Assembly: GCF_007753265.1 (NCBI RefSeq)
Contig: NZ_CP036349.1
Span: forward strand, 5,454,862 to 5,518,861
Length of the DNA stretch: 64,000 nt
Source: Botrimarina mediterranea
GTDB lineage: Bacteria; Planctomycetota; Planctomycetia; Pirellulales; Lacipirellulaceae
Direction: 5' to 3'
In this document: positions 18,596-63,840 of the stretch, piece after piece
How the letters are laid out: each line of letters starts with the position of its first letter
Position numbering within the stretch: the stretch's first letter is position 1
Notes under the pieces: generated by a model
Databases searched by the model: none
The model's input: only the letters and a program-made list of their open reading frames with translations
What the model was told of the DNA's origin: nothing
Program-made: the position numbers and the translations under genes

Positions 18596-18724
18596 GCAGC
18601 GCCCAGCTCTTGAGCCGCGCTTACCTCTTGAGTCGTGCAGGTGAGGAGGACGTGGTTCATGTGGGGGAGAGTACAAAAGCGGCGATGGTGTACGCAAGTA
18701 TACATCTGGCTTTTCTTGCGAGTG

Positions 18725-18802
18725 CTCCGCTTCCTTACCGGCGCGGCTCAAACGCACTTGACCTTGCAAGTCTTCTTGAGCCGCGCCCGTTAGGAAGCGG
18801 AG
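18725..18802. repeat. inverted repeat, P family copy 1
   Basis: A 27-base segment at 18776-18802 beginning TTGAGCCGCGCC pairs imperfectly with 18725-18751 to form a long hairpin. The right arm is identical to 31275-31301. A partial copy (TTGAGCCGCGCTTACC) lies near 18612. It sits in the gap before the next plus-strand gene and just upstream of its putative promoter. Confidence 0.8.
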
Positions 18803-18812
18803 CCCCAACCGC

Positions 18813-18818
18813 TATACT
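18813..18818 (+). promoter_or_regulatory. putative -10 element TATACT
   Basis: TATACT lies 41 bases before the GTG at 18859, a suitable distance for a short leader. No good -35 hexamer is present at the standard spacing. It helps to place the start of the next gene after 18818. Confidence 0.35.
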
Positions 18819-18858
18819 CGAGATTCCCCCTCCAACTCCCGACCACCCCCGCCACTCC

Positions 18859-19398
18859 GTGGACGACCTCGCCCAACGTCTCGCCGTTCAGGTCCGCAAT
18901 AAGCAGATCTTCATCCTGGCGATGATCGTCGTGCCGCTGATCTTTGCCGGTGTCGTCTACGCGATCGGCTCGCAGGCGCCGCAGAACCCCGCGCCGATCC
19001 GCGGCCAGATGGTCGACCGCCAAGACGCGATGGTCGTCATTGAACGGCTCGCCTTGGTGGTGGGGTTGTTGATCCTCGTGGTGCACCCGTGGATCGGCAG
19101 CTTCGTCACCGGCCAGTCGATCCGCGTGCTGGTGCGCGAAGGGACCGCCGACCCGGAGCACATCGCCGAGGCTTACCTCATCGGGACGCTCGTCGCCTGT
19201 GGGATGAACGAGGCCGCCGCGTTCCTCAACCTGATCGCGTTCATGCCGACGCAGTCGCTGTGGAACCTCGGCATGGCCCTGCTGCTGATCCTCTCCAGCG
19301 CGTTCAAGATGCCCACGGCGAAGCGAGTAGCGGCGTGGGCGCGCAACATGGCGCAGCGTTTGGCGGAGAAGCGGATGACGGGCGTCGGGGGTCAGTAG
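18859..19398 (+). CDS. small hypothetical multi-pass membrane protein
   Basis: The GTG at 18859 gives 179 residues. The frame stays open far upstream, but that part covers a repeat element and the end of the DUF1559 gene in another frame. The protein has hydrophobic segments at about residues 18-36 (ILAMIVVPLIFAGVVYAI), 59-75 and 110-150 (LIGTLVACGMNEAAAFLNLIAF, NLGMALLLILSSAF). I do not recognise the family. The last residues (GVGGQ) and the stop come from the start of the following repeat element, so the original C-terminus may have been changed. Confidence 0.6.
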   Translation: MDDLAQRLAVQVRNKQIFILAMIVVPLIFAGVVYAIGSQAPQNPAPIRGQMVDRQDAMVVIERLALVVGLLILVVHPWIGSFVTGQSIRVLVREGTADPEHIAEAYLIGTLVACGMNEAAAFLNLIAFMPTQSLWNLGMALLLILSSAFKMPTAKRVAAWARNMAQRLAEKRMTGVGGQ

Positions 19399-19662
19399 TC
19401 AGTAGTCTTGCGGCGGATGCTGCTCAATGGCTTGCATTTCTCGCCCGCCGCCCGGTCGATACATCTGTCCACCCAGATCGCAAAAGCCCCTCAGAACGCA
19501 TCCTGGGCGATCTGGCGCGGGTCTGGCGCGAAGCGTCGGCGAACCGGAAGCGTGAGCGCCCGGAGTTGCAGCGCGAACACGTTGTCAATCCGAGTACCCA
19601 CTTCACTCCGGTCGTTCACGCTTCCGGCTCGTCTGACTACTGATCTGATCCCTGACTACTCA
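19388..19662. repeat. long inverted repeat with GTCAGTAGTCAG ends, Q family copy 1
   Basis: The left end at about 19390-19408 (GGTCAGTAGTCAGTAGTC) is complementary to the right end at about 19634-19662 (GACTACTGATCTGATCCCTG). The ~225-base interior has a segment at 19572-19633 (GAACACG, GAGTACCC, CTCCGGTCG, CACGCTTCCGG in order) that recurs at 61556-61616. No gene is seen inside. The right end overlaps the last codons of the GTPase gene that follows. Confidence 0.7.
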
Positions 19663-20999
19663 CGACTGTCTCCGCTGTGCCGATTCCGCGCCAGCTTCTT
19701 ACTGATCTCGCCCTTCAGCCGCTCGATGATCGACGCCTTGTCGGTGTTCTCGAGGATCCGCTGGACGACGCGCTTCGGGCCGCGGTCGCCCCAGCTGGCG
19801 CCGTGCTCGAAGTAGTACCGCGCCGCTTGGCCGACGAGGTAACTGCCGTAGCCCGCCGCCGCGCCTTGCGGCAGCGCCGTTAGCAGCGTGCTGCCGCCGA
19901 AGGTCAGGCCCTTGAAGAAGCTGCTGCTAAAGCTGACGACCGCTTCGCTGAGCATCATCCAGCCCGCCGCTTGGAGGATCGCCATCACCAGGCGCCGAGC
20001 GTTGTCGGTCGTCATCTCGATGCCGTAGACGCTGGCGAGCGTCAGCACCATCGCCACGTCCACCGCGACGCCGCCGGCCACGTCGGCCGCGGGCCAGGGG
20101 TTCATCGACACGGCCAGCGCCTTCGCCGCGGCGTAGCTCCACACCACCGTGTCGGCCTTGTTGCTACGCATCCGCACCCGCAGCGCCGCGACGCGGTCGC
20201 TGCGATCGGCGGCGTACATTGCCGCGTTCAGAGCCACCAGCGCCTTGCCCTCGTCAACGAGCATCTCGAGGATCCGCCCGCGGACCCCTTCGATGTCGGG
20301 CTTCGGCTTCCTCCATTCGCTGCGAGTGGAGCCGTCAGCCTTCTCGATCACGTACTCGACCTCGCGCGGGTCCGCCGAGGCAAAGACCACATTCTCGGCG
20401 CCGCCGATAAGCTTCACGACGCGTGGCGAGGTCAGCGACTCCCGCAGGTCGGCAAGCTGCTCGGGCGTGTAGAGGTCCTGCTTGTTGAGCACCAGCAGCA
20501 CCGGCTTGTGCATCGCGGCGATCTGTTCGAGCGCCGAGAACTCGGTCTCGTTGAGGTCGCTGTCGGTAACGAGCAGCACAACGTCCGCGCGCTCGGCCGC
20601 GTCGCGCGCCATGTCGGCCCGGGCGGCGCCATCGACCTCGTTGAGGCCCGGCGTATCGACCAGCACCAGCTCCGACTCTTCGAGCCCCTTCACCACCGCC
20701 GCGGGCGCGGTCCACCCGAGCCGCCACACCTCGCGCGTCCAACCGCCACGCACGTTGACGCTCGCCACCTCGGAACCCGCCAACGCATTGATCAACGCGC
20801 TCTTCCCGGTGCTGATCTCGCCAAAGACCGCGATCTCCACCCGCTCGTGCCGCAGCTTGTCGGCGAGGTCGCGCAGCTCCCGCAACTCGGCCACCAGCGC
20901 CTCACGCTCCGCCGGGTCACACCCCTCAATCTGCGCAATCGCCCGCTCCACCCCAGCCAGGGCGTCGTCCAAATCGGCGGCAGGCGTTTGTTGTGACAC
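19656..20999 (-). CDS. GTPase with P-loop G domain and DUF697-like membrane-associated C-terminus
   Basis: The G domain has G1 GEISTGKSALIN (about 59 residues from the chosen start), G3 LVDTPGLNE and G4 LVLNKQDLY; the N-terminal helix is rich in Glu and Arg. The C-terminal half has hydrophobic helices (AGGVAVDVAMVLTLASVYGI, LVMAILQAAGWMM) and the Gly-rich region of DUF697/YcjF-like proteins. Dynamin-like or Era-like action at the inner membrane is plausible. The GTG at 20999 is chosen. A TTG start at 21032 would add MFLRSFVVSLL, which is only the translated repeat element upstream. A second GTPase of the same kind lies immediately upstream on the same strand. Confidence 0.8.
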   Translation of the reverse strand: MSQQTPAADLDDALAGVERAIAQIEGCDPAEREALVAELRELRDLADKLRHERVEIAVFGEISTGKSALINALAGSEVASVNVRGGWTREVWRLGWTAPAAVVKGLEESELVLVDTPGLNEVDGAARADMARDAAERADVVLLVTDSDLNETEFSALEQIAAMHKPVLLVLNKQDLYTPEQLADLRESLTSPRVVKLIGGAENVVFASADPREVEYVIEKADGSTRSEWRKPKPDIEGVRGRILEMLVDEGKALVALNAAMYAADRSDRVAALRVRMRSNKADTVVWSYAAAKALAVSMNPWPAADVAGGVAVDVAMVLTLASVYGIEMTTDNARRLVMAILQAAGWMMLSEAVVSFSSSFFKGLTFGGSTLLTALPQGAAAGYGSYLVGQAARYYFEHGASWGDRGPKRVVQRILENTDKASIIERLKGEISKKLARNRHSGDSRE

Positions 21000-21008
21000 T
21001 AGAAGGGA

Positions 21009-21088
21009 AACCACAAAGGAACGAAGGAACAAAGAAAGTATGCCGCCAAATCCATCGTCTTACTTCGTTCCTTGGTTCCTTTGTGGTT
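21009..21088. repeat. inverted repeat between the two GTPase genes, C family copy 1
   Basis: Left arm 21009-21034 begins AACCACAAAGGAACGAAGGA; right arm 21062-21088 is its near-perfect complement. The same arms recur at 40484-40568 and 62764-62906. The right arm encodes the last residues (EPQRNQGTK) and stop of the upstream GTPase, and the left arm borders the start of the downstream one. Confidence 0.85.
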
Positions 21089-22658: not shown

Positions 22659-22706
22659 GTCGTGCTGCGAGAGTGAGTGTCGGTAGGGGAGCGGCTGGTG
22701 GTTTCC

Positions 22707-22771
22707 TCCGGTCGCTAACGCTCCCGGCTCGCCTACAATTGGCTGGCGAGCCGGGAGCGTAAGTGACCGGA
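22707..22771. repeat. inverted repeat, H family
   Basis: Arms 22707-22732 (TCCGGTCGCTAACGCTCCCG...) and 22746-22771 are complementary. The core CTCCGGTCGCTCACGCTCCCGG recurs singly at about 59140, 61590 and, degenerate, 19603. It lies between a minus-strand and a plus-strand gene start. Confidence 0.75.
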
Positions 22772-22855
22772 GTGAACACAGCAGTCTCCCCCACTACGTG
22801 TTCGTCGCCTAATCGTCGTCCTTGCCAGTCTACTTGATACCAGCCGGAAGAGACC

Positions 22856-23848: not shown

Positions 23849-23856
23849 CAACAGAC

Positions 23857-23948
23857 GGCGAGCCGGCGACGTTAGTCGTCGGTGTGAAGTGCGATCCAAT
23901 TGAATGCGAAAACCGGCGCACACCGACGACTAACGTCGCCGGCTCGCC
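23857..23948. repeat. inverted repeat with perfect 30-base arms, L family
   Basis: Arms 23857-23886 and 23919-23948 are perfectly complementary and begin GGCGAGCCGGCGACGTTAGT; the spacer is 32 bases. It lies between convergent genes, so it may act as a bidirectional terminator, though no clear T-run follows. Confidence 0.85.
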
Positions 23949-23972
23949 ACAACTCTGTCTTTGAATCTTCCA

Positions 23973-26271: not shown

Positions 26272-26358
26272 TTGTAGGAGGCGTCTCCGACGCCGATTAC
26301 GCGCACCACACCGATTCGGAATGGAGGCCGTGATCGGCGTCGGAGACGCCTCCTACAA
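26272..26358. repeat. inverted repeat with perfect 26-base arms, A family copy 1
   Basis: Arms 26272-26297 and 26333-26358 are exactly complementary (TTGTAGGAGGCGTCTCCGAC...), with a 35-base spacer. Related copies are at 43145-43225 and 63754-63840. The right arm supplies the stop codon of the BatA-like gene (TAG at 26353-26355). Confidence 0.9.
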
Positions 26359-28528: not shown

Positions 28529-28619
28529 AATGACGAATGACGAAGCACGAATGACGAACCTGTCGGAGCCGCTAGAGCCCTCCGGCAGGTTCGTCATTCG
28601 TCATTCGTGCTTCGTCATT
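28529..28619. repeat. inverted repeat of 7-base units, B family copy 1
   Basis: Arms 28529-28567 and 28581-28619 are built of ATGACGA, AGCACGA and related 7-mers; the order of units differs between the arms, so pairing is by unit. A second copy is at 51380-51472. Confidence 0.85.
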
Positions 28620-29540: not shown

Positions 29541-29608
29541 GTTGTTCTTCTTTCACCGCGGAGACGCGGAGGACGCAGAGAAAGCGAGTCGCGTCGTGTC
29601 GACGCGGG

Positions 29609-30142
29609 GAAGAATGGGACGCGGATGACGCGGATTAAGGGGATGTTCGCGGATGTCTTGTAGGCCGCAACAAGCGTAGCGCAGTTGTGGCAACGAATCA
29701 CGTAAGCAGCAAAAGTATCAACGCTCAACTACCGAATGACGGGGCGATCGGGCTGAGGAGCATAGTCACCGATCACAGCATCTCCGCATCTCTCGCACAC
29801 AAACCCCCGTTCGCTACCAGTCCAATGATTGTCCCAAAGATGATCGACGACACATGGATCGAACCTCATTCGTTGACGAATCGAATCCAGTTCCAAGTAG
29901 CACGCATACCGAGTCCATCTGCGACAGTTTTTCGACCACGGCTTCTCATCTCGATAGATGACATCCATTCCAGCAACGGTAAGCTCGCAGTCGAGTTGTC
30001 GGAGATGTTCGCAAACCATCGCTCTTCGCCGGAGACTTACTCATCGATCATTACCGGAACATCGCTTCGCTTGTTCCGGGCTACAAAATCTGCGTCCATC
30101 CTCTTCAATCCGCGTTCATCCGCGTCCCATTCTTCCTTCAAT
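29609..30142. repeat. inverted repeat pair bracketing a small gene, O family
   Basis: Left end 29609-29645 (GAAGAATGGGACGCGGATGA...) and right end 30107-30142 (...TCATCCGCGTCCCATTCTTC) are complementary over about 30 bases. The ~460 bases between them hold the 96-residue gene 29729-30019. Just outside the left end is a CACCGCGGAGACGCGGAGG-type repeat. The unit looks like a cargo-carrying insertion in the MoxR-DUF58 operon. Confidence 0.75.
29729..30019 (-). CDS. small Cys/Trp-rich hypothetical protein within an inverted-repeat element
   Basis: The ATG at 30019 gives 96 residues. The composition is protein-like with spaced Cys (CEH, NCRRW, ACYLELD, PCVVDH, CERCGD) and conserved-looking Trp (KPWSKNC, NHWTGSERGF). 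The pattern W-x-x-NCR-W ... CY-x-D ... CVxDH ... GSExGFxC is one I associate with a small planctomycete-specific family of unknown function (from memory). The Cys/His spacing could bind zinc. It is on the same strand as its neighbours but bracketed by inverted repeats, so it may have arrived with them. Confidence 0.6.
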   Translation of the reverse strand: MVCEHLRQLDCELTVAGMDVIYRDEKPWSKNCRRWTRYACYLELDSIRQRMRFDPCVVDHLWDNHWTGSERGFVCERCGDAVIGDYAPQPDRPVIR

Positions 30143-30150
30143 ACGCTGAA

Positions 30151-31274: not shown

Positions 31275-31301
31275 TTGAGCCGCGCCCGTTAGGAAGCGGA
31301 G
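31275..31301. repeat. P family copy 2
   Basis: These 27 bases are identical to 18776-18802 (TTGAGCCGCGCC...AAGCGGAG). No complementary arm lies nearby, unlike copy 1. It is part of the divergent gap between the MoxR and DUF4159 genes. Confidence 0.8.
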
Positions 31302-31311
31302 TACTTTAGAA

Positions 31312-31563
31312 GGAGATAAGGGGGATGTTGGTGATAGGGGGGATCGCAGGCGGGCGAGTTGCCGCTTTGTTGTTCGAGCCGTATCGACGTAATTAGTCTC
31401 TCCCTTGTTCATTTTGGGGATAAGCCGCCAGCCGCTCCGCGGCTGCCCGCTATATCCCCCAGGCAGCACGTTAGACACTCGGCGTCGATCACAGTCCGCG
31501 GCGAAAGGCGCTACGCCCGCTCGCTTGCGATCCCCCCCTATCACCAACATCCCCCTATCTCCC
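31312..31563. repeat. long inverted repeat with ~45-base arms, N family, containing a nested hairpin
   Basis: Arms 31312-31357 (GGAGATAAGGGGGATGTTGG...) and 31514-31563 are complementary with few mismatches. The ~155-base interior holds a nested stem: GGGGATA 31416-31422 pairs with TATCCCC 31453-31459, and AGCCGC 31430-31435 pairs with GCGGCT 31439-31444. No gene lies inside. It occupies most of the divergent promoter gap. Confidence 0.8.
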
Positions 31564-34005: not shown

Positions 34006-34104
34006 GCTTTGTAGGGTCCGCTGTGCGGACCGTAGCTAGCGGTTTGGAGCGCGATGCGAGCTAGGGAACCGAACGGACGGTTCGCACAGCGGACCCTACA
34101 AAGC
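34006..34104. repeat. inverted repeat, K family
   Basis: Arms 34006-34033 (GCTTTGTAGGGTCCGCTGTG...) and 34077-34104 are complementary with a single mismatch; the spacer is 43 bases. It separates two plus-strand genes and might act as a terminator for the first. Confidence 0.85.
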
Positions 34105-39172: not shown

Positions 39173-39212
39173 GGTTTTTCTCATCTCCCGACAAACTCCT
39201 TTGAAGCCAACC

Positions 39213-40484
39213 GTGACCAAGTGGCTGTTACTTCTGCCGCTCGTTTCCCTGCTGATGGCGGCGATTTCTCCGAGCGTCCAGGGAATCACCCTCACCGGCC
39301 AGCGCGACATCCACGACCCCTCACGGATTCATGAGCTAGACGGTCGCTACTACACCTACGGCACCGGCGGGCCTGGGGGCGCGATCGTTACTCGCTACTC
39401 GGACGACCTCGTCCAATGGTGGAACGGACCGGCCGCCATCGCCGCGGTTCCCGCTTGGGCCCTGCAGATGGTCCCCGAGAACGGCGGCGGCATGTGGGCG
39501 CCCGATGTCGTACAAGTTGGCGACGAGTACCGAATGTACTACTCGGTCTCGTCCTTCGGCAGCCAACGCTCGGTCATCGGGCTCGCGACCAACACGACGC
39601 TCGACTTCAACAGCCCCAACTACCAGTGGGTCGATCAAGGCCTCGTGATCGCCTCGCAACCCGGCTCGCCCTACAACGCGATCGACGCCGGCCTGTTGTA
39701 CGAGGAAGATACGGACCGCCTCTGGCTATCGTTCGGCTCCTACTGGAACGGCCTCTACAGCACGCAGCTCAACGTCGATACCGGCAAGCTGTCGCCACGC
39801 AATCCCGCTCCCGTCAACATCGCGCGCAATCCCGGCAGCCCCGTAAATGCGATCGAAGCGGCCCACATCATGGAGCGCGAGGGCTCGTACTACCTCGTCA
39901 CCAACTGGGACGCCTGCTGCCAAGGCGCCAGCAGCACTTACAATCTTCGAGTCGGCCGCGGCGACAGCCCGCTCGGCCCTTTCTTCGATCGCAACGGCGT
40001 CAACATGCTCCAAGGCGGCGGCGAGTTGTTCCTCGCTACCGAGGGAAACCAGATCGGCCCGGGGCACTTCAGCGACTTTTCCGCAAATGGCCTCGACTAC
40101 TTCGCCTTCCACTATTACGACGGCGCCGCGAATGGCGCCCCACGCTTAGGGATCGAAGAGTTCGGCTGGACCTACGACGGCTGGCCCGTAGCGCTGCGCG
40201 ACCTTCCTGCCGGCGACTACAACCGCGACGGCCGCGTCGACGCCGCCGACTACACCGTCTGGCGAGACACCTTCGGCTCGACAACCGACCTCCGCGCCGA
40301 TGGCAGCAGCGGCCGCGGCAGCGCCGGCCGCATCGACCAATCCGACTACGGCGTCTGGTCGATCAACTACAGCGCCGATTACGCCACGGCAACCACTAGC
40401 ACGACCATCCCCGAGCCAACCGCGTTCAGCCTCACTGCCATCGCCGCCGCGTATCTCTCAGCGTTCCGCCGCCAAGAATCTTGA
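39213..40484 (+). CDS. secreted GH43 arabinanase-like glycosidase with dockerin-like repeats and PEP-CTERM signal
   Basis: The GTG at 39213 starts a signal peptide (TKWLLLLPLVSLLMAA). The five-blade beta-propeller of family 43 shows: nucleophile-side Asp in IHDPSRIHELDGRYYTYGTG, the NAIDAGLLYEEDTDRLWLSFGSYW block with the central Asp, and the catalytic Glu in AIEAAHIMEREGSYYLVTNW. This is closest to endo-1,5-alpha-L-arabinanases. The C-terminus has an Asp-rich repeat pair ([33 protein letters not shown]) and a PEP-CTERM signal (PEPTAF, hydrophobic, RRQES). It is therefore an exported, sorted arabinan hydrolase. The stop codon borders repeat C2. Confidence 0.88.
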   Translation: MTKWLLLLPLVSLLMAAISPSVQGITLTGQRDIHDPSRIHELDGRYYTYGTGGPGGAIVTRYSDDLVQWWNGPAAIAAVPAWALQMVPENGGGMWAPDVVQVGDEYRMYYSVSSFGSQRSVIGLATNTTLDFNSPNYQWVDQGLVIASQPGSPYNAIDAGLLYEEDTDRLWLSFGSYWNGLYSTQLNVDTGKLSPRNPAPVNIARNPGSPVNAIEAAHIMEREGSYYLVTNWDACCQGASSTYNLRVGRGDSPLGPFFDRNGVNMLQGGGELFLATEGNQIGPGHFSDFSANGLDYFAFHYYDGAANGAPRLGIEEFGWTYDGWPVALRDLPAGDYNRDGRVDAADYTVWRDTFGSTTDLRADGSSGRGSAGRIDQSDYGVWSINYSADYATATTSTTIPEPTAFSLTAIAAAYLSAFRRQES

Positions 40485-40568
40485 ACCACAAAGGAACGAA
40501 GGAACAAAGAAGAATCGACGGGGGGTCCAGATCCGTTCTTCCCGTCGTTCCTTAGTTCCTTTGTGGTT
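40484..40568. repeat. inverted repeat, C family copy 2
   Basis: Arms 40484-40514 (AACCACAAAGGAACGAAGGA...) and 40536-40568 are complementary, between convergent genes whose stops lie at 40482-40484 and 40576. It could terminate transcription from both sides. Confidence 0.88.
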
Positions 40569-43144: not shown

Positions 43145-43290
43145 TGTAGGAGGCGTCTCCAGACGCCGATTACGGTCTCCCAGCCGAATTACGGCATGGT
43201 GCACGTAATCGGGGTCTGGAGGCCCCCCCCCACAGCCATCTTCGATGGCTTCTTCCCTCAGCCCCTAGCCCCTCGTCCCTAACCCCTCGT
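43145..43290. repeat. degenerate A family copy 2 followed by an E-type arm
   Basis: The left arm at 43145-43172 (TGTAGGAGGCGTCTCCAGAC...) pairs with a decayed right arm at 43204-43225. A run of C follows (43223-43231), then a one-sided E-family stretch CCTCAGCCCCTAGCCCCTCG at about 43257-43276. The element lies directly upstream of thyA. Confidence 0.75.
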
Positions 43291-47730: not shown

Positions 47731-47828
47731 GGGGAGGGGCTAGGGGTTAGGGGCTGAGGGGCTGAGGGAAGGACTGGGGAACGCTTGCGCTTTCCCTTAG
47801 CCCCTTAGCCCCTAACCCCTAGCCCCTT
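47731..47828. repeat. inverted repeat of AGGGGCT-type units, E family copy 1
   Basis: Left arm 47731-47770 (GGGGAGGGGCTAGGGGTTAG...) pairs with right arm 47792-47827. Units vary (GGGGCTA, GGGGTTA, GGGGCTG), giving register freedom. A GCTTGCGC motif in the loop recurs in E copies at 55281, 57483 and 59231. It separates lemA from the M48 gene. Confidence 0.85.
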
Positions 47829-50240: not shown

Positions 50241-51358
50241 ACGATGCCCCTTTCAACAATAAAGCGGCCTTCTTCGATCTCCCTGCGATCGACGCCCTCG
50301 CGCGCCGCTTGAAGATCGATCCGCACCGCGTCCGCCGCGCGCGCGTCGCTTACTTCAAGAAGTCGCTCAGCGCCGACGCCGCTCTCGCTGAACTGCCGCC
50401 CGAAGTCCGCGACGCCTTCGCCGCCGCCGTTGCGTTCGAAACCCTCACCGACATCCGCCGCTTTGATTCGCAGATCGACGGCGCCAGTAAACTCATCTCG
50501 CGCACCACGGCCGGTTACGCGATCGAAACCGTCATCCTCCGCCCCTCGACCGGTCGCACCGCGCTCTGCGTGTCGAGCCAGGTCGGCTGCGCCGCCGCCT
50601 GCGCTTTCTGCGCCACCGGCCAGATGGGCGTCGCCAAAAGCCTCAGCGCCGCCGAGATCCTCGACCAAGTTGTCCAAGCCAACCGCCTCCTTGCCGCCGA
50701 AGACCGCCGCGTCCGCAACATCGTCTTCATGGGCATGGGCGAACCCCTGCACAATGAAGCCGCCCTCCACGAAACGCTCGCCACACTCGGGGCCTCGCAG
50801 GGCTTCGACCATCCGCCGTCGCGCACCCTCGTCAGCACCGTCGGCGTCCCCGAGCCGCTCCTCCGCACCGCCGAGCGCTTCCCCACCGTTAACTTCGCCC
50901 TCAGCCTCCACGCCGCCTCGCAAGCCACGCGCGAAACGATCATCCCGCTGGCCAAACGCTACTCGCTCGACGTTCTCCGCAGCGCCGTTGAGCAGCTCAA
51001 CGCCATGCAGCCCGAACGCACTTCGGTGATGATCGAGTACCTGATGCTGGACGGCGTCAACGACTCCGACGCCGACGCCGCCCTCCTCCTCGACTGGCTG
51101 CAAGGCCTCCGCGTCCACGTCAACCTCATCCCCTTCAATCCGATCGCTACTGCGCCCCATCTCCAGTCCTCCCCACGCCACACGATCGAAGCCTTCGGCG
51201 TCATCATCCGTAACGCCGGCCACCCCACCACGATCCGCTACTCCCTCGGCCGCGACATCGACGCCGCCTGCGGCCAACTCGTCCGCGACGAGAACCTCGC
51301 CATCGCCAAATCACTCCGCCAGGTCGCTAGCCAAGACCTATCAGCCGCGGGGCCTTAG
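50237..51358 (+). CDS. rlmN: 23S rRNA (adenine2503-C2)-methyltransferase RlmN
   Basis: The 373-residue radical-SAM enzyme has C118-x3-C122-x2-C125 (QVGCAAACAFCATG). The GMGEPLHNE loop, LVSTVGVPE, FALSLHAASQATR and IEYLMLDGVND blocks are present, with the methyl-accepting Cys345 near the end (DIDAACGQL). It methylates A2503 of 23S rRNA and, in E. coli, also tRNA A37. It is translationally coupled to epmB (ATGA overlap), placing two radical-SAM translation-accuracy enzymes in one transcript. At its end begins the phage-derived minus-strand module, separated by repeat B2. Confidence 0.95.
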   Translation: MNDAPFNNKAAFFDLPAIDALARRLKIDPHRVRRARVAYFKKSLSADAALAELPPEVRDAFAAAVAFETLTDIRRFDSQIDGASKLISRTTAGYAIETVILRPSTGRTALCVSSQVGCAAACAFCATGQMGVAKSLSAAEILDQVVQANRLLAAEDRRVRNIVFMGMGEPLHNEAALHETLATLGASQGFDHPPSRTLVSTVGVPEPLLRTAERFPTVNFALSLHAASQATRETIIPLAKRYSLDVLRSAVEQLNAMQPERTSVMIEYLMLDGVNDSDADAALLLDWLQGLRVHVNLIPFNPIATAPHLQSSPRHTIEAFGVIIRNAGHPTTIRYSLGRDIDAACGQLVRDENLAIAKSLRQVASQDLSAAGP

Positions 51359-51379
51359 CCCCCGGTTCCCTTCTTCGGA

Positions 51380-51472
51380 AATGACGAATGACGAAACCCG
51401 AATGACAAACCTACCGGTGACGGTGCGACCCCTCCGATAGGTTCGTCATTCGTCATTCGTGCTTCGTCATTC
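51380..51472. repeat. inverted repeat of 7-base units, B family copy 2
   Basis: Left arm 51380-51416 and right arm 51434-51472 share the ATGACGA/AGCACGA/ATGACAA units of 28529-28619. It marks the boundary between the host operon ending in rlmN and the phage module. The right arm supplies the stop codon of the last phage gene. Confidence 0.88.
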
Positions 51473-52108
51473 CCCCACCTCTTCCGCCGTCACGCGATAA
51501 ACGTCGCCTGCTGTCGCCGGCAGCATCTGATCAACGACCGCATATAAACCCCCGCGATGCCGCCGCACGCGGTCACCCTCTCGAAGGTCGATCGGCGCCA
51601 CCATCGTCACCGTGACGCTCACCGGGTTCACCGCGTCCTGCGGCTGCAGCCCGTCGGCCCTCGCGAAGCATCCCACGAGCCCCGGCCGCACCGTCCGCCA
51701 GCCGACCACCGTCGGCCCTTCCGAGGTCTCTTGGAAGATCGGCCGCTCCCAATCGAAGCGCTCGGCGAACTCCGGCGCGATCGTCGCGCGCACCGACTCG
51801 CACGACCACCGAGTCGCGCCACGCATCCGGTTCACGCTCCGAATCGTCGAGCACCCGCCGGCGCCGTCGACGACCACGTCTCCCGGTTGCGGCGAGACCC
51901 CCTCCACCTCGAGCGGCAACTGCCAAACCACCACCCGCCGCCGCACGGCGCCCTCGGCGTCGTCCGGCGAATCCGTCGCGTCGTCGAACCGCCACGCCAA
52001 CATCTCCACGCCCGCGCCGCCGTGCGGACAGCGATAGAGCGTCACCGGCTCGAGCGTATCGACTACCGCCGCGAAGTCGCCCTCGGCGTTCCACTGGATA
52101 GGCATCAC
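51467..52108 (-). CDS. phage-module hypothetical protein, 213 residues
   Basis: I do not recognise the family. It is a soluble, beta-rich, acidic protein with segments such as VEMLAWRFDDATDSPDD, QPGDVVVDGAGGCSTIRSV and DLREGDRVRRHRGGLYAVVDQMLPATAGDVYRVTAEEV. The size and last position after the capsid genes would fit a head-completion or head-tail joining protein, but this is inference from position. The start overlaps the end of the preceding 71-residue gene (ATGA). The final residue and stop come from repeat B2, so the natural end may have been slightly different. Confidence 0.65.
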   Translation of the reverse strand: MMPIQWNAEGDFAAVVDTLEPVTLYRCPHGGAGVEMLAWRFDDATDSPDDAEGAVRRRVVVWQLPLEVEGVSPQPGDVVVDGAGGCSTIRSVNRMRGATRWSCESVRATIAPEFAERFDWERPIFQETSEGPTVVGWRTVRPGLVGCFARADGLQPQDAVNPVSVTVTMVAPIDLREGDRVRRHRGGLYAVVDQMLPATAGDVYRVTAEEVGE

Positions 52109-53821: not shown

Positions 53822-53903
53822 GGCGTGGTTCCCAATCAGGTTCCAAGACTTAGAGAAGCATCAGCGAGCGTCGGGGTTGAAGCGGGCGCCCACAACAACC
53901 ACC

Positions 53904-54020
53904 GGCGAGCCCACGACGTAAGTCGTGGGTGGGAAGCGATTTCCCACTTCCCACCCACGATTCACATCGTGGGCTCGCCGCCCCCCTCGTCCCCCGTCCC
54001 TAACCCCCCGTCCCTCAACT
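53904..54020. repeat. inverted repeat, followed by a one-sided E-type stretch
   Basis: GGCGAGCCCACGACGTAAGT... at 53904-53935 pairs with 53948-53979 with few mismatches. At 53985-54020 a CCCTAACCCCC-type E stretch follows. The element lies between the capsid and LamG genes. Confidence 0.75.
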
Positions 54021-55217: not shown

Positions 55218-55340
55218 GTAGGGTGGGTTGCAACCCACCGAGGCCAAGTACCCGCTTCGCAGTGGGTCCCGACCCACCCGACGCTTGCGCGTCCCCTCAG
55301 CCCCTCAGCCCCTTAGCCCCTCAGCCCCTAACCCCTCCCC
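55218..55340. repeat. composite element: F-family hairpin plus E-family arm
   Basis: The F part is GGGTGGGTTGCAACCCACC at about 55220-55239, followed by a related GTGGGTCCCGACCCACC at 55262-55278. The E part, starting with GCTTGCGCG at 55283, runs as CCCCTCAGCCCC units to 55340. The same F-then-E order occurs at 59165-59279. Confidence 0.85.
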
Positions 55341-55342
55341 CC

Positions 55343-55816
55343 CTACGCCGCTTCTTGCGGCCCGCCCTTCATCACCGTGCTGACGACGTCCACCAGCACC
55401 CGCGTCGCCGCCACCGTCACTTGCTTGGCGCACCGTCCGATCGCCACGCCGACGCTCGCGGCGTCGGCGACCTTCTGGTCGATCAGTTGATCGCCAGCGA
55501 GGTTGATGCCGACCGAGATGAAGTCGCCCAACCCGTGCGTCGCCGAGTCGCAATCGAACTCAAAGGCGCCCGACGTCGCGATCCGAATCGATGAGGCCGT
55601 CCCCACCGGCGACGCCTGCATCGCGACGCCAACAAAGGCGTCGTGGAACCCTGACAGGTTGAGCACGCTCGACCCCTGGTTCGCCAGAGCCGAAGCCGGC
55701 CGCGCCATCCCCTCGGCCAGATAGACGAGGTCACCAATCTCGACCGCCACGTCCGCCGCCACCGGCAACATCACCGGGTTGGTGTCCCCATACCGCCACC
55801 GCATCGTATTCGCCAT
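55343..55816 (-). CDS. phage capsid-decoration-like protein (DUF2190-like)
   Basis: The ATG at 55816 has GAGGAGCG upstream and gives 157 residues. The fold looks beta-rich, with Gly-rich turns (GDTNPVMLPVAADVAVEIGDLVYLAEGMARPAS, GDFISVGINLAGDQLIDQKVADAASVGVAIGRCAK). DUF2190-type proteins of similar length lie between protease and major capsid genes in many phages and act as head decoration. The assignment is from position and general pattern. It is transcribed before the capsid gene, with composite repeat 55218-55340 between the two. Confidence 0.6.
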   Translation of the reverse strand: MANTMRWRYGDTNPVMLPVAADVAVEIGDLVYLAEGMARPASALANQGSSVLNLSGFHDAFVGVAMQASPVGTASSIRIATSGAFEFDCDSATHGLGDFISVGINLAGDQLIDQKVADAASVGVAIGRCAKQVTVAATRVLVDVVSTVMKGGPQEAA

Positions 55817-55882
55817 CACTCGCTCCTCATGCTTAGTTGATGAATCAACAACCAACGCCCGAAGGGCGCCGACTTATCCCCG

Positions 55883-56026
55883 GGGTTAGGGGAGGGTGAA
55901 ACGTCTCCAGCTACCTAACGCATTGAGTACCGTTGTGTTGCAATTGGTACTCAGAGCGTGAAGAAGCTGGACGCCGCAGACCTCCCCCCGTACTTCTGAA
56001 AAAGGGCCTCCCTTACAGGGAGGGGG
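55883..56026. repeat. G family element copy 1 (~145 bases)
   Basis: It starts GGTTAGGGGAGGGTGAAACG and ends with AGGGAGGGGG; in the middle is a hairpin with GCATTGAGTACCG and GGTACTCAGAGCG (55919-55960). Related elements lie at 58918-59094 and 61396-61540, all within the phage module and all in the same orientation. Confidence 0.8.
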
Positions 56027-56967: not shown

Positions 56968-57040
56968 TCGAGAAAGGATGCGCCGGTTCTCAAGAACCAA
57001 CGCTCGGCTCGACGCCGTTGTTTGTGTAATAAAGCCTTCT

Positions 57041-57123
57041 GGTGGCGCTGCCCGAGGCTAGCGCCTACGGCTCAAGTCGTGCGTGACTTTTTTGAGCCGT
57101 AGGCGCTAGCCTCGGGCGCCACC
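57041..57123. repeat. inverted repeat with ~32-base arms, J family
   Basis: GGTGGCGCTGCCCGAGGCTA... at 57041-57075 pairs with 57091-57123 with only a few mismatches. The loop holds CTTTTTT. It lies between the small DUF2292-like gene and the protease gene. Confidence 0.85.
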
Positions 57124-57126
57124 GTT

Positions 57127-57150
57127 AAAAGTTCTCACGCAGAGAGAACT
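57127..57150 (-). terminator. small stem-loop after the DUF2292-like gene
   Basis: AGTTCTC (57150-57144 on the minus strand) pairs with GAGAACT (57136-57130), then TTTTAA follows. It lies about 30 bases after the stop of the small gene and could terminate its transcript. Confidence 0.45.
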
Positions 57151-57178
57151 TCTCTTGTCGCCTTCCGCTCTCCCCCTT

Positions 57179-57343: not shown

Positions 57344-57370
57344 TGATCTCCTGTCGTTTCGCATGGCCGT

Positions 57371-57376
57371 ATTATA
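57371..57376 (-). promoter_or_regulatory. -10 element TATAAT upstream of the small gene
   Basis: On the minus strand TATAAT lies 28-33 bases before the ATG at 57343. The -35 region is poor (ACGTCT-like at 17 bases). It is one of few consensus -10 boxes I noticed in the window. Confidence 0.5.
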
Positions 57377-57431
57377 TGCGACCGACGGTGAACAGACGTA
57401 CCGTAATAGCCACTTTTCCGCACAATCTGAC

Positions 57432-57522
57432 GAGGGGCTAGGGGCTGAGGGGTTGAGGGGCTAAGGGAAGAGACGGGGGATCGCTTGCGCGTCCCCTCAG
57501 CCCCTTAACACCTCAGCCCCTC
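57432..57522. repeat. inverted repeat of AGGGGCT-type units, E family copy 2
   Basis: GAGGGGCTAGGGGCTGAGGG... at 57432-57468 pairs with 57491-57522; the loop has CGCTTGCGCG. It is next to the 3' end of the portal gene. Confidence 0.85.
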
Positions 57523-57524
57523 CG

Positions 57525-58877: not shown

Positions 58878-58917
58878 GCTGTACCTATGGATCGAATGTT
58901 GTAGTGCGATGGGTAAT

Positions 58918-59094
58918 CCCCCTCCCTCTTTAAGGAGGGGTTAGGGGAGGGTCTGCGTTCTCCGTTACGAAAAACTCCGTCAGCGATTCGAGCCACGCAC
59001 GTAAATCGGTACTCAATGCGTAAGGACGCTAGTCACCGCAGACCCTCCCCCCCACTTCTCTGAATGACGGGCTCCCTAAAAAGGGAGGGGAGTA
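58918..59094. repeat. G family element copy 2 (~175 bases)
   Basis: It begins CCCCTCCCTCTTTAAGGAGG, then GGTTAGGGGAGGGTCTGCG, and ends with CGCAGACCCTCCCCCC and a terminal AAAAAGGGAGGGG hairpin. GGTACTCAATGCG at about 59008 is shared with copy 1. Inner and outer arms both pair, giving nested hairpins. Confidence 0.82.
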
Positions 59095-59136
59095 GCGCTG
59101 CTTGATCTGTTTAGATAGTGGGTCGTCTGGTGATTC

Positions 59137-59279
59137 ACTCCGGTCGCTCACGCTCCCGGCTCGCCTCATAGGTGGGTTGCAACCCACCGAAGCCGGGCAC
59201 CCACTTCGCGGTGGGTCCCGACCCACCCTACGCTTGCGCGTCCCCTCAGCCCCTTAGCCCCTCAGCCCCTAACCCCTCG
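59137..59279. repeat. composite element: H, F and E family parts in series
   Basis: A single H arm (CTCCGGTCGCTCACGCTCCC) at 59140-59163, an F pair at 59168-59186 and 59210-59226, and an E arm from 59231 to 59279 follow each other. The E part runs into the terminase gene and encodes its last ten residues. Confidence 0.82.
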
Positions 59280-60841
59280 CGCCAAATCTCCTCCGCCAGC
59301 CTCATCGCCATCTCCAGCGCGTCGGGCCCGTCGTCGTGCGCGCCGATCGGGAAGTCGCGCAGCTGGTCCACCAGCAGCGCCGCCCCCGGGCTGCCGCGCT
59401 TGAAGCGCAGCCGCCGTTGCGACAGGTACGGCCCCAGGCGCCGGATACGCATCGCCTTGTTCGTGTGGTTGTGGATCTCGCACGGCGTCATCCCGATCGC
59501 GCCCTGCCGCGCGAACTCCGCGACGAACTCGCCCGCGAGCAGCTGCTGCCACTGGTTCGCCTCGACGCCAAACGCGTCTGGCTTGAACGCCAGGCAGTGC
59601 GCAACGCCGTCCGCCGCCATCTGCGCGGTCGGCCTTCGCGCGAGGTCCGCGTCGATGTGCAGCACGCCGTTTTCATCGACGCCGAGCAGCACGATCGCCG
59701 AGTAATCGCCCGTCCGCGCGTCGCTCCCCTTGCTGGGGTCGATCGCGATCACCCGCAGCTTCAGCCGCTTCGGCCAATCCGCGAACCAGGCGTGCTCGCC
59801 GAAGTACGAATCGGGCCACTCGCACCGCGTCGGGTCGATCGGCGACCCCTGCTTCTCGCGCTCGAACGCCGGATGGCCGCTCTGCACGCGCATCTCCATC
59901 AGCGTGTAGAGGTCCTCCTCCTCGGGCCACAGCACCTCGGCGCCCGCGTGCAGCGCGAAGCGGTTCGCCTCGTAGAACGCCCGCGCGTCGGCGGCGGCGT
60001 GCTTGCGGTCGCTGTCGCAGTAGATCACCTCCCACTCGCGCCACAGCTCCGTGTCGTGCGGCCAGCGGACAATCGCCCGGAAGGTCTTCGAAGCCCAGCC
60101 CGCCGTTTGCCCGAGCCGCATCGCCAGCGCGTCGCGGTGCAGGGCCGTGGCGACGTTGACGAGGTTCGTCTCCTTCGTGCCCGCCTTCATCAGCGTGCCG
60201 TGGAACCACTGGCTCGACGCCTCGCGTTGCAGCGCCGAGGCGATGTGCCGGTCGTTCTGCAGGTCGTCGCACACCACCAGCGTCGGCCGGTGCGACCTTC
60301 GCCGGCGCCCCCGGATCCGCTGCCCCGTGCCGTACGCCTCGATGACGACGCCGTTCCGCAACTCGACGCCCCCCGCCTGCCAGCGCGGCCCGCGGCCGAC
60401 CGCGCTGGGGTAGGCCGCCGCCAGCTCGCGGTTCTCCAGCAGCTCGGTCTTAACGTTCTCGAGATGCGACTGGGCCTGGTCCTTGGTGTCCGACACGATC
60501 CAGATGTAAGGCTCGCTCCCCTCGACCGCCGCCCGCAGCACGCCCGCCAAGGTGGCCACCGTCGACTTCGCCGCCCCACGCGGCCCGATCACGTTCACCT
60601 TCAGCCCCCTGCTCTCGCGCATCAGGTCGAGTTGATCCCCCAACCACCGGTGCAACAACGACGGCGGCTTGGCGAAATGCGCCGGCAGGTAACGCTGCCC
60701 CCAAGCGACGAGCCCCGTGTCGGCCTGCTCGAGCGGTCGCGCTAGCGGCCGCCCGAGGAACGCCGCCGCCAGCGCCCCACGGAACGCGCGGCTCAACCGC
60801 GGCGACGCCCGTCGATCGATCTTCCCCCAGTACGTCGTCAT
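59246..60841 (-). CDS. phage terminase large subunit
   Basis: The 531-residue protein has an ATPase with Walker A GPRGAAKST (residues 86-94), Walker B TLVVCDD (187-193) and a coupling region (NVATALHRDALAM). The C-terminal nuclease starts with VIAIDPSKGSDARTGDYSAIVLLG and ends with HDDGPDALEMAMRLAEEIW, with the metal-binding Asp residues. It packages DNA into the prohead through the portal. The start overlaps the gene before it by four bases. Its last residues (EGLGAEGLRG) are translated from the E-family repeat, so the native end was probably near EEIW. Confidence 0.93.
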   Translation of the reverse strand: MTTYWGKIDRRASPRLSRAFRGALAAAFLGRPLARPLEQADTGLVAWGQRYLPAHFAKPPSLLHRWLGDQLDLMRESRGLKVNVIGPRGAAKSTVATLAGVLRAAVEGSEPYIWIVSDTKDQAQSHLENVKTELLENRELAAAYPSAVGRGPRWQAGGVELRNGVVIEAYGTGQRIRGRRRRSHRPTLVVCDDLQNDRHIASALQREASSQWFHGTLMKAGTKETNLVNVATALHRDALAMRLGQTAGWASKTFRAIVRWPHDTELWREWEVIYCDSDRKHAAADARAFYEANRFALHAGAEVLWPEEEDLYTLMEMRVQSGHPAFEREKQGSPIDPTRCEWPDSYFGEHAWFADWPKRLKLRVIAIDPSKGSDARTGDYSAIVLLGVDENGVLHIDADLARRPTAQMAADGVAHCLAFKPDAFGVEANQWQQLLAGEFVAEFARQGAIGMTPCEIHNHTNKAMRIRRLGPYLSQRRLRFKRGSPGAALLVDQLRDFPIGAHDDGPDALEMAMRLAEEIWREGLGAEGLRG

Positions 60842-61329: not shown

Positions 61330-61660
61330 AGGAGTCAGGGGTCAGGGGTCAGTAATCAGTTAATCAAGAACGGAAGCGAAGCGCCCGCCCGTGTCCCCCT
61401 CCCTTCTAGGGAGGGGCTAGGGGAGGGTGAAACGCGTCTCGTGAATTGCCGCATCGAGTACCGCGACGCCAGAACCAATTGGTACGCACATCAGCCATGC
61501 GCCGGCCGCGGCCCCTCAGGGGGAAGGGGGATTACGCGCCCGGAGTCGAAGAGCGAACACGGATTGAAAGCGAGTACCCGCGTCAACTCCGGTCGCTCAC
61601 GCTCCGGGCTCGCCATCTCTCTCCTCCTGACTACTGACGACTGATCCCTGACGACTGCCC
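61328..61660. repeat. long element: Q family ends around G family copy 3 and an H arm
   Basis: AGTCAGGGGTCAGGGGTCAG at 61334-61353 pairs loosely with CCTGACTACTGACGACTGATCCCTG at 61626-61650. Inside are a G copy (61396-61540, starting CCCTCCCTTCTAGGGAGGGG) and a segment (61556-61616) homologous to 19572-19633. The right end encodes the C-terminal residues of the ATPase-GNAT protein. Confidence 0.75.
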
Positions 61661-62745: not shown

Positions 62746-62763
62746 GTTGGCTTCCTTTTTTGC

Positions 62764-62906
62764 ACCACTAAGGAACAAAGGAACGAAGTAGGGAAAGAGC
62801 CTGCGAATGACGCAAATGACCGCGGATTTCTTTCATTCGTGCTTATTCGCGTTATTCGCGGGCTTCTCTTTCTTCACCACCTTTGTTCCTTCGTTCCTTT
62901 GTGGTT
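62764..62906. repeat. inverted repeat, C family copy 3, with an inner hairpin
   Basis: ACCACTAAGGAACAAAGGAA... at 62764-62793 pairs with 62872-62906. The inner part has GCCTGCGAATGACGC (about 62799-62813) facing GCGTTATTCGCGGGC (about 62849-62863). It separates the ParB-like and ATPase-GNAT genes. Confidence 0.82.
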
Positions 62907-62915
62907 AACAAATCT

Positions 62916-63467
62916 TCAAAGCGTCAGAACACGGCAGCGAAACCCCGCCGCCCGCATCCGCTCATAAACCTCGCGCTGCTGCGCTTCGCCATCGACTTCG
63001 ACCACCACTTGGTAGCTCGGCGTGATCTCGACATCCGCCGGCGCCGGCAGCGCTTCTTCGCTCTCGATCTCGCGCGCCAACTTCGCCAGCATCTCGCCGA
63101 CCGCCTTGCTCTCGGTCTCGACGGCGCCCAACAGCGCGCCGAGCCGCGTGTCATCGACGCCGGCGAGCGACGCCAGCGGGTCGTGCGTCAACAGAACCTT
63201 CTCCGCCTCGGCGTCGTCGAGGTCGAGCACCAGCACCGGCACCATCATCGAAGGCGTTGTTTCCGCCCGCAGATGCCCGTCCACCAATTGCAGCGACCCG
63301 TCCGGCAACTCCCTAGCGAGCAACGCGCCGGCCATGCCGACCTCGTTGAGCAGCCCTCGCAGCACGTCGCGTTGAAAGCGCGAGTGTGTCCGCCAGTTCT
63401 TCGGGTGCGGCGCAAGATCGCCCGCGCGCACCCGTCGCAACTCTTTCACCCGGTCACGAATCTTCAT
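62916..63467 (-). CDS. ParB N-terminal domain protein of the phage module
   Basis: The ATG at 63467 gives 183 residues; a longer frame upstream overlaps the next gene. The ParB/sulfiredoxin-like core shows DLAPHPKNWRTHSRFQRDVLRGLLNEVGMAGALLARELPDGSLQLVDGHLRAET, with the GHLR nucleotide-binding motif, then VPVLVLDLDDAEAEKVLLTHDPLASLAG. The helix-turn-helix part of true ParB is absent. Such single-domain proteins occur in phages near DNA methylases and modification enzymes. It overlaps the membrane-protein gene before it by four bases and precedes the ATPase-GNAT fusion gene. Confidence 0.87.
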   Translation of the reverse strand: MKIRDRVKELRRVRAGDLAPHPKNWRTHSRFQRDVLRGLLNEVGMAGALLARELPDGSLQLVDGHLRAETTPSMMVPVLVLDLDDAEAEKVLLTHDPLASLAGVDDTRLGALLGAVETESKAVGEMLAKLAREIESEEALPAPADVEITPSYQVVVEVDGEAQQREVYERMRAAGFRCRVLTL

Positions 63468-63706
63468 CGCATGCTCCTTCTTGCCAGATGACGCACGTCT
63501 TGCTGCAACAGCTCGACGTTGTGCTTGAGCCCCGCCAACTCCGCATCCACCGCCGCCAACCGCTCGCGATGCGTCTGCGAGATGTCGTAAAGCTTGTAAA
63601 GCGTCGCCCCACCGAGCGACAGAATCGCCAGCGCCAGCGAACAAAGCCCGCCCCAATCGGCGGGAGCGAGTCGCACGCGATCGGTTGTTTCGGCAACGCG
63701 AACCAT
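63464..63706 (-). CDS. small protein with one membrane helix and a coiled coil
   Basis: The 80-residue protein has a hydrophobic helix GLCSLALAILSLGGATLYKLY (about residues 20-40), then a coiled coil (ERLAAVDAELAGLKHNVELLQQDVRHLARR). The layout is like holin-adjacent or phage-lysis accessory proteins, but also like many unrelated small proteins, so no function is assigned. It is translationally coupled to the ParB-like gene (ATGA overlap). Confidence 0.7.
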   Translation of the reverse strand: MVRVAETTDRVRLAPADWGGLCSLALAILSLGGATLYKLYDISQTHRERLAAVDAELAGLKHNVELLQQDVRHLARRSMR

Positions 63707-63753
63707 GGCGTAGTCGTCAGGGGTCAGAGGTCAGCAATCAGGAAGAACCACGT

Positions 63754-63840
63754 CTGTAGGAGGCGTCTCCGACGCCGATTTCACGCACCATGCGGTTACG
63801 GGGTGGAGACCGAAATCGGCGTCGGAGACGCCTCCTACAG
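63754..63840. repeat. inverted repeat with perfect 28-base arms, A family copy 3
   Basis: Arms 63754-63781 and 63813-63840 are exactly complementary (CTGTAGGAGGCGTCTCCGAC...), with a 31-base spacer. The sequence is nearly identical to the copy at 26272-26358, 37 kb away. A GGGGTCAGAGGTCAGCAATCAGG Q-type fragment lies just left of it (63720-63742). Confidence 0.9.

Follow-up and report, generated by a model that had tools for sequence, protein, structure and literature searches.

Repetitive extragenic palindromic (REP) sequences of Pseudomonas and Escherichia coli form inverted doublets, or REPINs, that carry a GTAG or GTGG tag, lie outside genes and occur in many copies, alongside REP-flanked genes for REP-associated tyrosine transposases (RAYTs) (PMC3116915, PMC2817692). 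Tagged stem-loops are also described in Planctomycetes, where RAYT-like genes are flanked by REPs or by long terminal inverted repeats (TIRs) (Di Nocera 2013, PMC3733652). Here, we describe the inverted repeats found in 64,000 nucleotides (nt) of the Botrimarina mediterranea genome (contig NZ_CP036349.1, positions 5,454,862 to 5,518,861), referred to throughout as the window. We consider it probable that these hairpins are two populations of mobile DNA: REPINs spread by RAYTs (class 1), and hairpins that would be the bare form of cassettes holding one gene each (class 2). Families A, F, and K of the window are like the described REPINs. Unlike in the described systems, a superfamily with a GAG tag is also present, and several REP families stand alongside class 2 hairpins. 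For class 1, RAYT/REPIN biology is thus extended, with a second tag, to a planctomycete running several families side by side.

Class 2 recalls several other systems. Mobile insertion cassettes (MICs) have the ends of known insertion sequences (IS). Like these, and like miniature inverted-repeat transposable elements with cargo, the arrangements described below have no transposase, place inverted ends around a passenger gene and are presumably moved in trans. Conversely, no parent IS was identified here, Y1 being the only family searched; the arms are tandem units of 7-10 nt, and bare hairpins are abundant. Integron cassettes hold one gene each, have a folded recombination site (attC, at the 3' end), are exchanged at one place and are read with the host operon. 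Here too there would be one gene per cassette, exchange at one place and reading with the operon. However, inverted half-arms lie on both sides, sites are single and scattered, and no arrays were seen; an integrase was not searched for. Short tandemly repeated repetitive sequences are intergenic and made of near-tandem 7-nt units, and 23S rRNA intervening sequences place a small gene at a hairpin apex. The heptamer repeats of Xanthomonas and Nostoc are likewise intergenic, near-tandem 7-nt units (PMC4692102). In contrast to heptamer repeats, the units here form inverted pairs with a loop and may enclose genes. In contrast to the 23S rRNA sequences, the sites are gaps between protein genes and the enclosed gene varies.

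In the literature within our reach, which leaves out most subscription journals, we found no account of single genes bracketed by tandem-unit arms, and this is weak evidence of novelty. Our more tentative proposal, possible though short of probable, is that class 2 hairpins mark the ends of a mobile system not described before. Such a system would consist of one-gene cassettes that have no transposase and inverted arms of 7-10-nt units, occupy fixed operon gaps and nest at the hairpin apex. If so, the cassettes would be a route by which single genes, for instance of SMI1/KNR4 type, pass between species in operon gaps with no visible transposase. They may also account for some of the intergenic hairpins that are still unclassified in environmental bacteria. 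Concrete predictions can be tested at the moxR|DUF58 and pheS|pheT gaps.

Number and distribution of the repeats

Inverted repeats with exact arms of at least 12 nt, and loops of at most 150 nt, were counted and compared with first-order Markov shuffles. A sequence-only reading of the window, made without database searches, had reported more than 20 inverted repeats right of 18.6 kb. The scan bears this out, with 25 in positions 18601-64000 against 1.2 expected. Positions 1-18600 contain none (0.23 expected). Arms of at least 16 nt number 11, and 0 were expected. A scan that tolerates mismatches, and takes only non-overlapping repeats, gives 19 in the window. The positions reported earlier agree with ours where checked, and perfect arms of 26-30 nt were indeed found at 23857, 26272, 57050, and 63754. 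Arms are less well matched at repeat M (44726), being ~81% complementary.

To place these numbers in context, we used an 864-kb sample composed of the window and forty 20-kb stretches of the same genome. It contains 194 repeats; hence, they are a genome-wide feature. Most (180) lie mainly outside called genes, and ~80% of the sample is called coding. Twenty of the 20-kb stretches elsewhere range from 0 to 5.5 repeats per 10 kb. The density that had been called unusual is therefore not so, and the idea of a uniquely dense window was dropped once the rest of the genome had been sampled.

REPINs and RAYT genes

In families A, F, and K, a GTAG-type tag stands at the foot of a short hairpin. The arms are GTAGGA-GGCGTC-TCC-GACGCC for A, GTAGGGTCCGC-TGT-GCGGACC for F and GTAGGGTGGGT..ACCCACC for K. 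The A arm is thus tag plus perfect hairpin (GTAG-GA-GGCGTC-TCC-GACGCC), and a P. fluorescens REP in a table of Nunvar 2010 (GTGGGAGGGGGCTTGCCCCCGAT; PMC2817692) resembles it. In the window, A occurs at 26272..26358 (GTAG followed by GGCGTC-TCC-GACGCC), at 63754..63840, with perfect 29-nt arms, and, decayed, at 43145..43236. K lies at 34006..34104 (GTAGGGTCCGCTGTGCGGACC) and F, together with an arm of family E, at 55218..55345 (GTAGGGTGGGTTGCAACCCACC). Copies of A are ~87 bp long. In the sample of this genome, A arms make 24 inward pairs, 0 outward pairs and 10 singles (median span 87 bp), and K arms make 6 inward pairs and 5 singles (median span 91 bp). Hence, both A and K have the REPIN arrangement of two inverted REPs within ~70-130 bp; F was left out of this count. 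That families recur, as first reported, is clear from A alone: the genome, a single 5.87-Mb contig, has 40 or more copies close to full length (40 of the 208 candidates were scored).

A second set of repeats differs in its tag. Families H, J, L, and P, together with the repeats at 53903 and 19540, are hairpins of the form [C/T]GAG-CC...GG in which the stems vary and most loops have four bases. For H, J, L, P, and 53903 the tag is [C/T]GAG rather than GTAG, and this lies outside the two tags, GTAG and CGTC, named in the accessible text on planctomycete REPs (PMC3733652). Members are P at 18724..18803 ([T]GAG tag, TGAGCCGCGCCCGTTAGGAAGCGGAG arms), a REPIN of the H direct-repeat family at 19540..19631, H at 22701..22777 (GAG tag, GGCGAGCCGGGAGCGTNAGNGACCGGAG), L at 23857..23948 (GAG tag, perfect 30-nt arms), a REPIN at 53903..53980 (GAG tag, CGAGCCCACGACGTAAGTCGTGGG) and J at 57050..57117 (TGAG tag, perfect 26-nt arms). 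A single P-type REP lies at 31276..31301 on the forward strand. All these form one REP superfamily, probably with RAYTs of its own; the earlier division into families holds as to recurrence and fails as to the split. Among 2073 [CT]GAGCC sites, 134 fold as GAG-type hairpins, chance folds included.

No repeat was said to carry a transposase. This fits the window but not the genome, where RAYT genes elsewhere sit between such arms. The gene that we call RAYT-A (168 amino acids (aa), Y1_Tnp, Pfam E 1.6e-10; locus L032) has an inverted A arm on either side, the two being identical over 31 bp. Two more RAYTs (L033 and L034; Y1_Tnp E 1e-8 and 6e-7) have GAG-CC hairpins on both sides; in two copies flanking L033, the base preceding GAG is A or G. 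Overall, six of the eight Y1 genes of this genome (L031-L037 and L042) have REP-type repeats on both sides. The flanking REPs are inverted arms at L032, L033, L034, L036, and L042, and direct copies at L037. At L031, REPs occur on one side, and the Y1 gene of L035 is decayed. Note that L036 and L037 fall below the Pfam cut-off, and that L042, the eighth gene, which GTAG REPs flank left and right, was identified solely by its similarity to RAYT-A (E 1.2e-6). We infer that these RAYTs, of the Y1/HUH type, move class 1 elements in trans. Each element would consist of two REPs facing each other, tag outward and then short hairpin, and would be spread by single-copy RAYTs.

Orthologues of RAYT-A (E<1e-40) are present in 5 of 38 relatives (genomes G001, G003, G015, G017, and G030). 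At four of them, inverted REPs that have the A skeleton and different stems stand as a pair around the gene. The fifth, in G030, has an A-skeleton REP on each side, with no strong inverted pair scored. Neither RAYT-A nor A matches occur in G002. The closest named relative found for RAYT-A is in Botrimarina colliarenosi (61%), and the flanks are alike in G001 (L070), which by computed kinship belongs to the genus of the window, and the B. colliarenosi record (L058). In three species (L032, L070, and L071) RAYT-A adjoins a gene starting ATGAAAAACGTCG, which suggests vertical inheritance. Searched against plasmids, family A had no match.

Some further observations concern REP-type repeats. A single TCAG-tagged REP at 51340..51367 (forward strand) holds the stop codon of the upstream open reading frame (ORF), and positions 26353-26358 likewise carry a neighbouring ORF's stop codon. 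By eye, TAG or TAA can be read in the loops of many REPs, either on one strand or on both. IS-like elements with ORFs of 285-287 aa, starting MERELW, lie within repeat arms at L055:5781-6830, L151:9891-10938, and L148:14583-15563; two of the copies, listed with identical ORF starts, are inside GAG-tagged REPs. In relatives, the Y1 genes of L077, L079, L082, and L083 are between AAAAGGGGACATTCTACTTTT-like inverted repeats. These recall the GGGGWSAS TIRs of TIR-associated tyrosine transposases (TIRYTs) (PMC3733652).

Tandem-unit hairpins and proposed one-gene cassettes

Two architectures exist among the hairpins, and some arms enclose genes; the sequence-only reading missed both. In class 2 (families B, C, E, O, Q, and many others), the arms repeat units of 7-10 nt in near tandem. 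B, C, E, and many other families have significant arm periodicity at 6-12 nt and no internal hairpin. Our classifier assigned 59 repeats to class 2, 30 to REPs, 1 to both and 90 to neither, with 14 in coding sequence; many short-stemmed but clear REPs, and a few class 2 members, fall in the group assigned to neither. Family C arms in the sample make 13 inward pairs, 0 outward pairs and 2 singles. In the window, C is found at 21009..21088 (AACCACAAAGGAACGAAGGAAC), 40484..40568, and 62763..62908, where a further repeat occupies the loop. B, with GAATGAC units, is at 28529..28619 and 51377..51474. E, with AGGGGCTG units, is at 47735..47827 and 57440..57521.

Q and O, both on the earlier list of inverted repeats, are more than plain hairpins. 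In Q, two weak arms made of tandem units form the outer pair, and repeats of other families lie between them. At 19392..19643, the arms (TCAGTAGTCAG, 19392-19402/19633-19643, score 11) surround the REPIN at 19540-19631. At 61334..61652, 7-nt units GTCAGGGGTCAGGGGTCAGTAATCAG (61334-61359/61627-61652, score 14) surround G and an H-type REP. A reading that placed Q in the GAG superfamily was discarded on recheck. O is a nested element (29541-30150), and its arms, at 29608-30136, are ~500 bp apart with a gene between them. From the left, it has a forward-strand CG arm of the outer shell (29551..29580, TTTCACCGCGGAGACGCGGAGGACGCAGAG), whose right partner is not seen here and is present in G001. Next are the left O arm (29608..29646, forward; matched part GGAAGAATGGGACGCGGATGA, 29608-29628) and a GTAG-REP (29658..29681, forward, TTGTAGGCCGCAACAAGCGTAGCG). 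The enclosed reverse-strand gene (29729..30019) encodes 96 aa without a confident family. On its right are the inner GTAG-REP (30063..30086, reverse) and the right O arm (30098..30136, reverse; matched part 30116-30136).

A scan for inverted arm pairs 200-1500 bp apart, with mirror repeats as control, was applied to samples of seven genomes. In DNA from this genome, there are 36 inverted pairs and 1 mirror pair. Those filled by an ORF number 20 rows (15 places) against 0. The seven genomes together give 62 inverted against 4 mirror pairs, and 38 ORF-filled rows against 1. Among the ORF-filled rows are RAYT genes, three copies of IS and some doubtful cases, and one place may give several nested rows. 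Passenger-gene candidates in this genome are at L040, L041, L138, L144, and L146.

The CG arm family (TTCACCGCGGAGTTCGCGGAGGACGCGGAG) illustrates the arrangement. This genome has 11 places of CGCGGAG type, 6 of them paired. All six pairs hold one ORF of 114-312 aa, with edges 0-51 bp away. The 133-aa product is SMI1/KNR4 (Pfam E 1.4e-12), and those of 114, 116, 145, 154, and 312 aa have no family; L166 and L174 have weak CG partners, scoring 13 and 15. G001 has three large CG pairs, with ORFs of 85, 128, and 255 aa, and four small pairs without a gene. G003 has one large pair around an ORF called GxxExxY-like by its likeness to an L208 protein that matches TIGR04256. Family N is another example. 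In the window it is a ~250-bp element with GGGATGTTGGTGATAGGGGGGAT arms (31311..31563). Genome-wide, there are 65 N arms and, by our own count of the list, 22 pairs 155-236 bp long and two larger. The enlarged copies hold a DUF695+RraB gene and a CAAX-protease gene. In all, genes tightly bracketed by class 2 arms encode SMI1/KNR4, DUF1877, and GxxExxY proteins and unknowns. No transposase was seen among the enclosed proteins scanned.

The enclosed gene has the orientation of its neighbours in 13 of the 13 cases resolved as lying between co-directed genes: O in two species, the pheS site in two, the moxR site in four, L041, L146, L158, L174, and L217. Some of these cases are not independent of each other, and the genes were called roughly; L144, L166, L181, L218, and L219 were left out. 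L138 lies between convergent genes. We suggest that cassettes enter at the hairpin apex, or are swapped by recombination between like arms, and that the cassette gene would be read with the host operon.

The hairpins might all, class 2 included, be mobilized by RAYT or other Y1 enzymes, with the cognate RAYT now lost and the enclosed genes hitch-hiking. REPINs and class 2 hairpins do share gaps, size and mostly inward arms, RAYT genes are themselves arranged as arm, gene and arm, and the accessible text of Bertels and Rainey 2011 mentions REPINs incorporating beneficial DNA (PMC3116915). Furthermore, class 2-like arms lie outside REP-type arms at two Y1 genes (L099 and, in this genome, L032). 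However, class 2 arms are tandem units without the REP design of tag plus internal hairpin. Of 43 Y1 loci fetched from relatives, 39 were inspected, the other four being too near contig ends, and at none (0/39) are class 2 arms the inner terminal repeats. Nor are they innermost at any Y1 gene of this genome, a difference from TIRYTs and TIRtrons. L035, once taken for a Y1 gene inside class 2 arms, was rejected since the gene is decayed and class 2 hairpins are on one side only. We regard mobilization of both classes by RAYTs as fairly unlikely.

Nested palindromes, with one family in another's loop, were noticed at L032:1308-2022, L035:1293-1475, L057:2077-2218, and L181:1987-3094. The RAYT-A element is itself inside a class 2 shell.

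Orthologous gaps and alternative explanations

The gap between moxR and the DUF58 gene (AAA_3/bpMoxR and DUF58 by Pfam) has class 2 arms in four species. They enclose a 154-aa gene here, a 108-aa gene in G001, GxxExxY in G003 (TIGR04256, E 2.3e-45) and DUF1877 in G007 (E 6e-33). The DUF58 gene follows the enclosed gene in all four, and in G002 and G017 lies within ~100 bp of moxR. When nine enclosed proteins were compared by blastp, none matched another at E<=0.1, and by this measure the four moxR-site genes are unrelated. By eye, the G001 gene had seemed SUKH-like. Pfam gave it no family, so we call it unknown. At this gap in G005 (L211), downstream of the moxR-like gene, two overlapping ORFs (84 and 133 aa) look, by eye, like an antitoxin and toxin; a further ORF there lies in GTAG-type arms.

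At pheS|pheT, also identified by Pfam, the gap is 7 bp in G002. A bare hairpin is present in G001 and G017 (both scored) and, by eye and below the score cut, in G003. An SMI1 gene fills the site in this genome and in G007. The two are 58% identical and differ at 46, 27, and 82 first, second, and third codon positions, a pattern indicating that coding has been kept. The arm units are of different types, ACCACAGAG in G007 and ACCGCGGAG here.

In G001, the gene at site O encodes 85 aa and is surrounded by CG arms, a GAG-type REP and O arms. In the window, the 96-aa gene has around it the left CG arm, an apparent vestige of the second layer, the O arms and GTAG REPs. In G003, the gap is 105 bp with a different hairpin. 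If the cassette proposal is true, the exchange of core genes between like shells (96-aa here, an unrelated-looking 85-aa gene in G001) would be integron-like swapping without an integron. Homologues of the 96-aa gene occur in 13 of 195 other genomes searched, and in none of three congeners.

From ~18.9 kb to the window end, gene order is kept in the regions of two congeners that were compared, except that gene 39201-40484 is unmatched and one gene is missing in G003. We compared 33 gaps with congeners; some have no orthologue in one species, and edges, taken from protein alignments, are approximate. Many gaps differ in content. The gap at 19540 is 257 bp here, 13 bp in G001, and 204 bp in G003. 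That of E at 47735 is 101 bp, against 38 (G001) and 60 bp (G003), both free of hairpins. The composite of G, H, F, and E at 58937..59286 occupies a gap of 368 bp (55 in G001 and 59 bp in G003), and the gap of Q at 61334 is 18 bp in G001. B at 51380 is absent from G001 and G003, whose gaps are far shorter and hairpin-free. The A REPIN at 26272 is also in G001, and absent from the orthologous gap in G003 and G002; that at 43145 has an orthologous copy in G001 and none in G003. In other gaps, one element stands where another does elsewhere. At 28529, B here corresponds to a family A REPIN in G001 and G003. K at 34006 is common to G001, and G003 has a different hairpin. C at 62764 corresponds to a K REPIN in G001, and in G003 there is no gap. 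At 21009, C-like hairpins are present in all three species. The earlier suggestion of non-autonomous mobile elements thus gains from genome-wide dispersal, from presence and absence at congeners' orthologous gaps and, for the REP class, from RAYTs between like arms. For class 2, we picture hairpins that come and go in the same gaps, a halved arm flanking a single small gene. By species, orthologous gaps hold nothing, a bare hairpin or different genes.

Alternatively, template switching may lengthen palindromes by copying an insertion from one arm into the other, so that nested shells and matched arms arise without transposition. Concentric shells with gaps of 1-4 bp on both sides, seen in G001-O and L181 (10-52 bp in other nests), are consistent with this, as are the arm unit types that differ between species at pheS|pheT. 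Nevertheless, whole elements recur at many unrelated places, and we think template switching an unlikely explanation.

It is very doubtful that the enclosed genes are ordinary host genes, to which arms came separately or beside which the hairpins act as 3'-end or transcript-stabilizing modules. In favour of host genes, elements prefer convergent gaps and 3' ends, and some pairs look like full hairpins either side of a host gene (for instance L135 and L161). Conversely, moxR|DUF58 has four unrelated genes in four species and adjoining flanks in two others. The CG arms are halves, identical at up to 33 of 33 bases and close to the ORF ends, and the mirror control gave 1 ORF-filled row against 38. 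The host-gene explanation already fails at the compared sites, and could hold for other pairs.

Repeats occupy 46 of 73 convergent, 88 of 256 tandem, and 23 of 86 divergent gaps, and the median distance from a REP-class element to the closest called stop codon is 20 bp. These counts are approximate because the edges given by our purpose-written codon-usage gene caller are rough, and the split between REP and class 2 used with them is coarse. While convergent enrichment and closeness to stop codons would suit bidirectional intrinsic terminators, elements in 88 tandem and 23 divergent gaps, and between co-directed pheS and pheT, together with dispersal and empty sites that terminators leave unexplained, make this account most improbable. 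As to the earlier suggestion that the hairpins serve as RNA-structure modules or bidirectional terminators, our data are compatible with such possible roles.

Several results weigh against two RAYT- and cassette-based populations of mobile DNA. No target duplication was established. RAYT-A is present in just three of the nine relatives with A matches (G001, G003, G004, G006, G007, G014, G017, G022, and G036), and A matches are missing from G015 and G030, which do have RAYT-A. GAG-type arms also occur in outward pairs (H 1, J 2, and P 1). For class 2, no transposase was found, with Y1 the sole recombinase family searched, and the 0/39 result at relatives' Y1 loci counts here as well. At moxR|DUF58, G005 and G015 have other sequence without class 2 arms (G008 was left out). 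At pheS|pheT, G005 has other repeats, and none was scored in G015 or G008. None of the 13 genomes with homologues of the 96-aa O gene has them within such arms. Five of the 11 CGCGGAG-type places in this genome are unpaired. ORF-filled rows are few in G007, G017, G013, and G028 (1, 3, 1, and 2), and in G003 inverted and mirror counts are equal (1 and 1). Among the IMG/VR loci listed (at least 120), 112 of 130 AACCRCRGAG-type arms on the contigs lack a partner within 2.5 kb, and an ORF fills 2 of the 6 large loops. These mostly unpaired viral-contig arms count against the generality of cassettes. Given lone viral arms, few ORF-filled pairs and homologues free of arms, the cassette habit may be special to the genus and its neighbours, or much of the material elsewhere may have decayed.

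One further repeat in the window is G, which is G-rich (GGGGTTAGGGGAGGGT), at 55882..56025. No Rfam RNA family matched the window above its gathering score, and a tRNA scan of it found none. The genes at 1-18600 share no order with the two congener regions compared. This stretch, which is without these repeats and is lower in guanine plus cytosine in its first 12 kb (0.60-0.62), may be lineage-specific or acquired.

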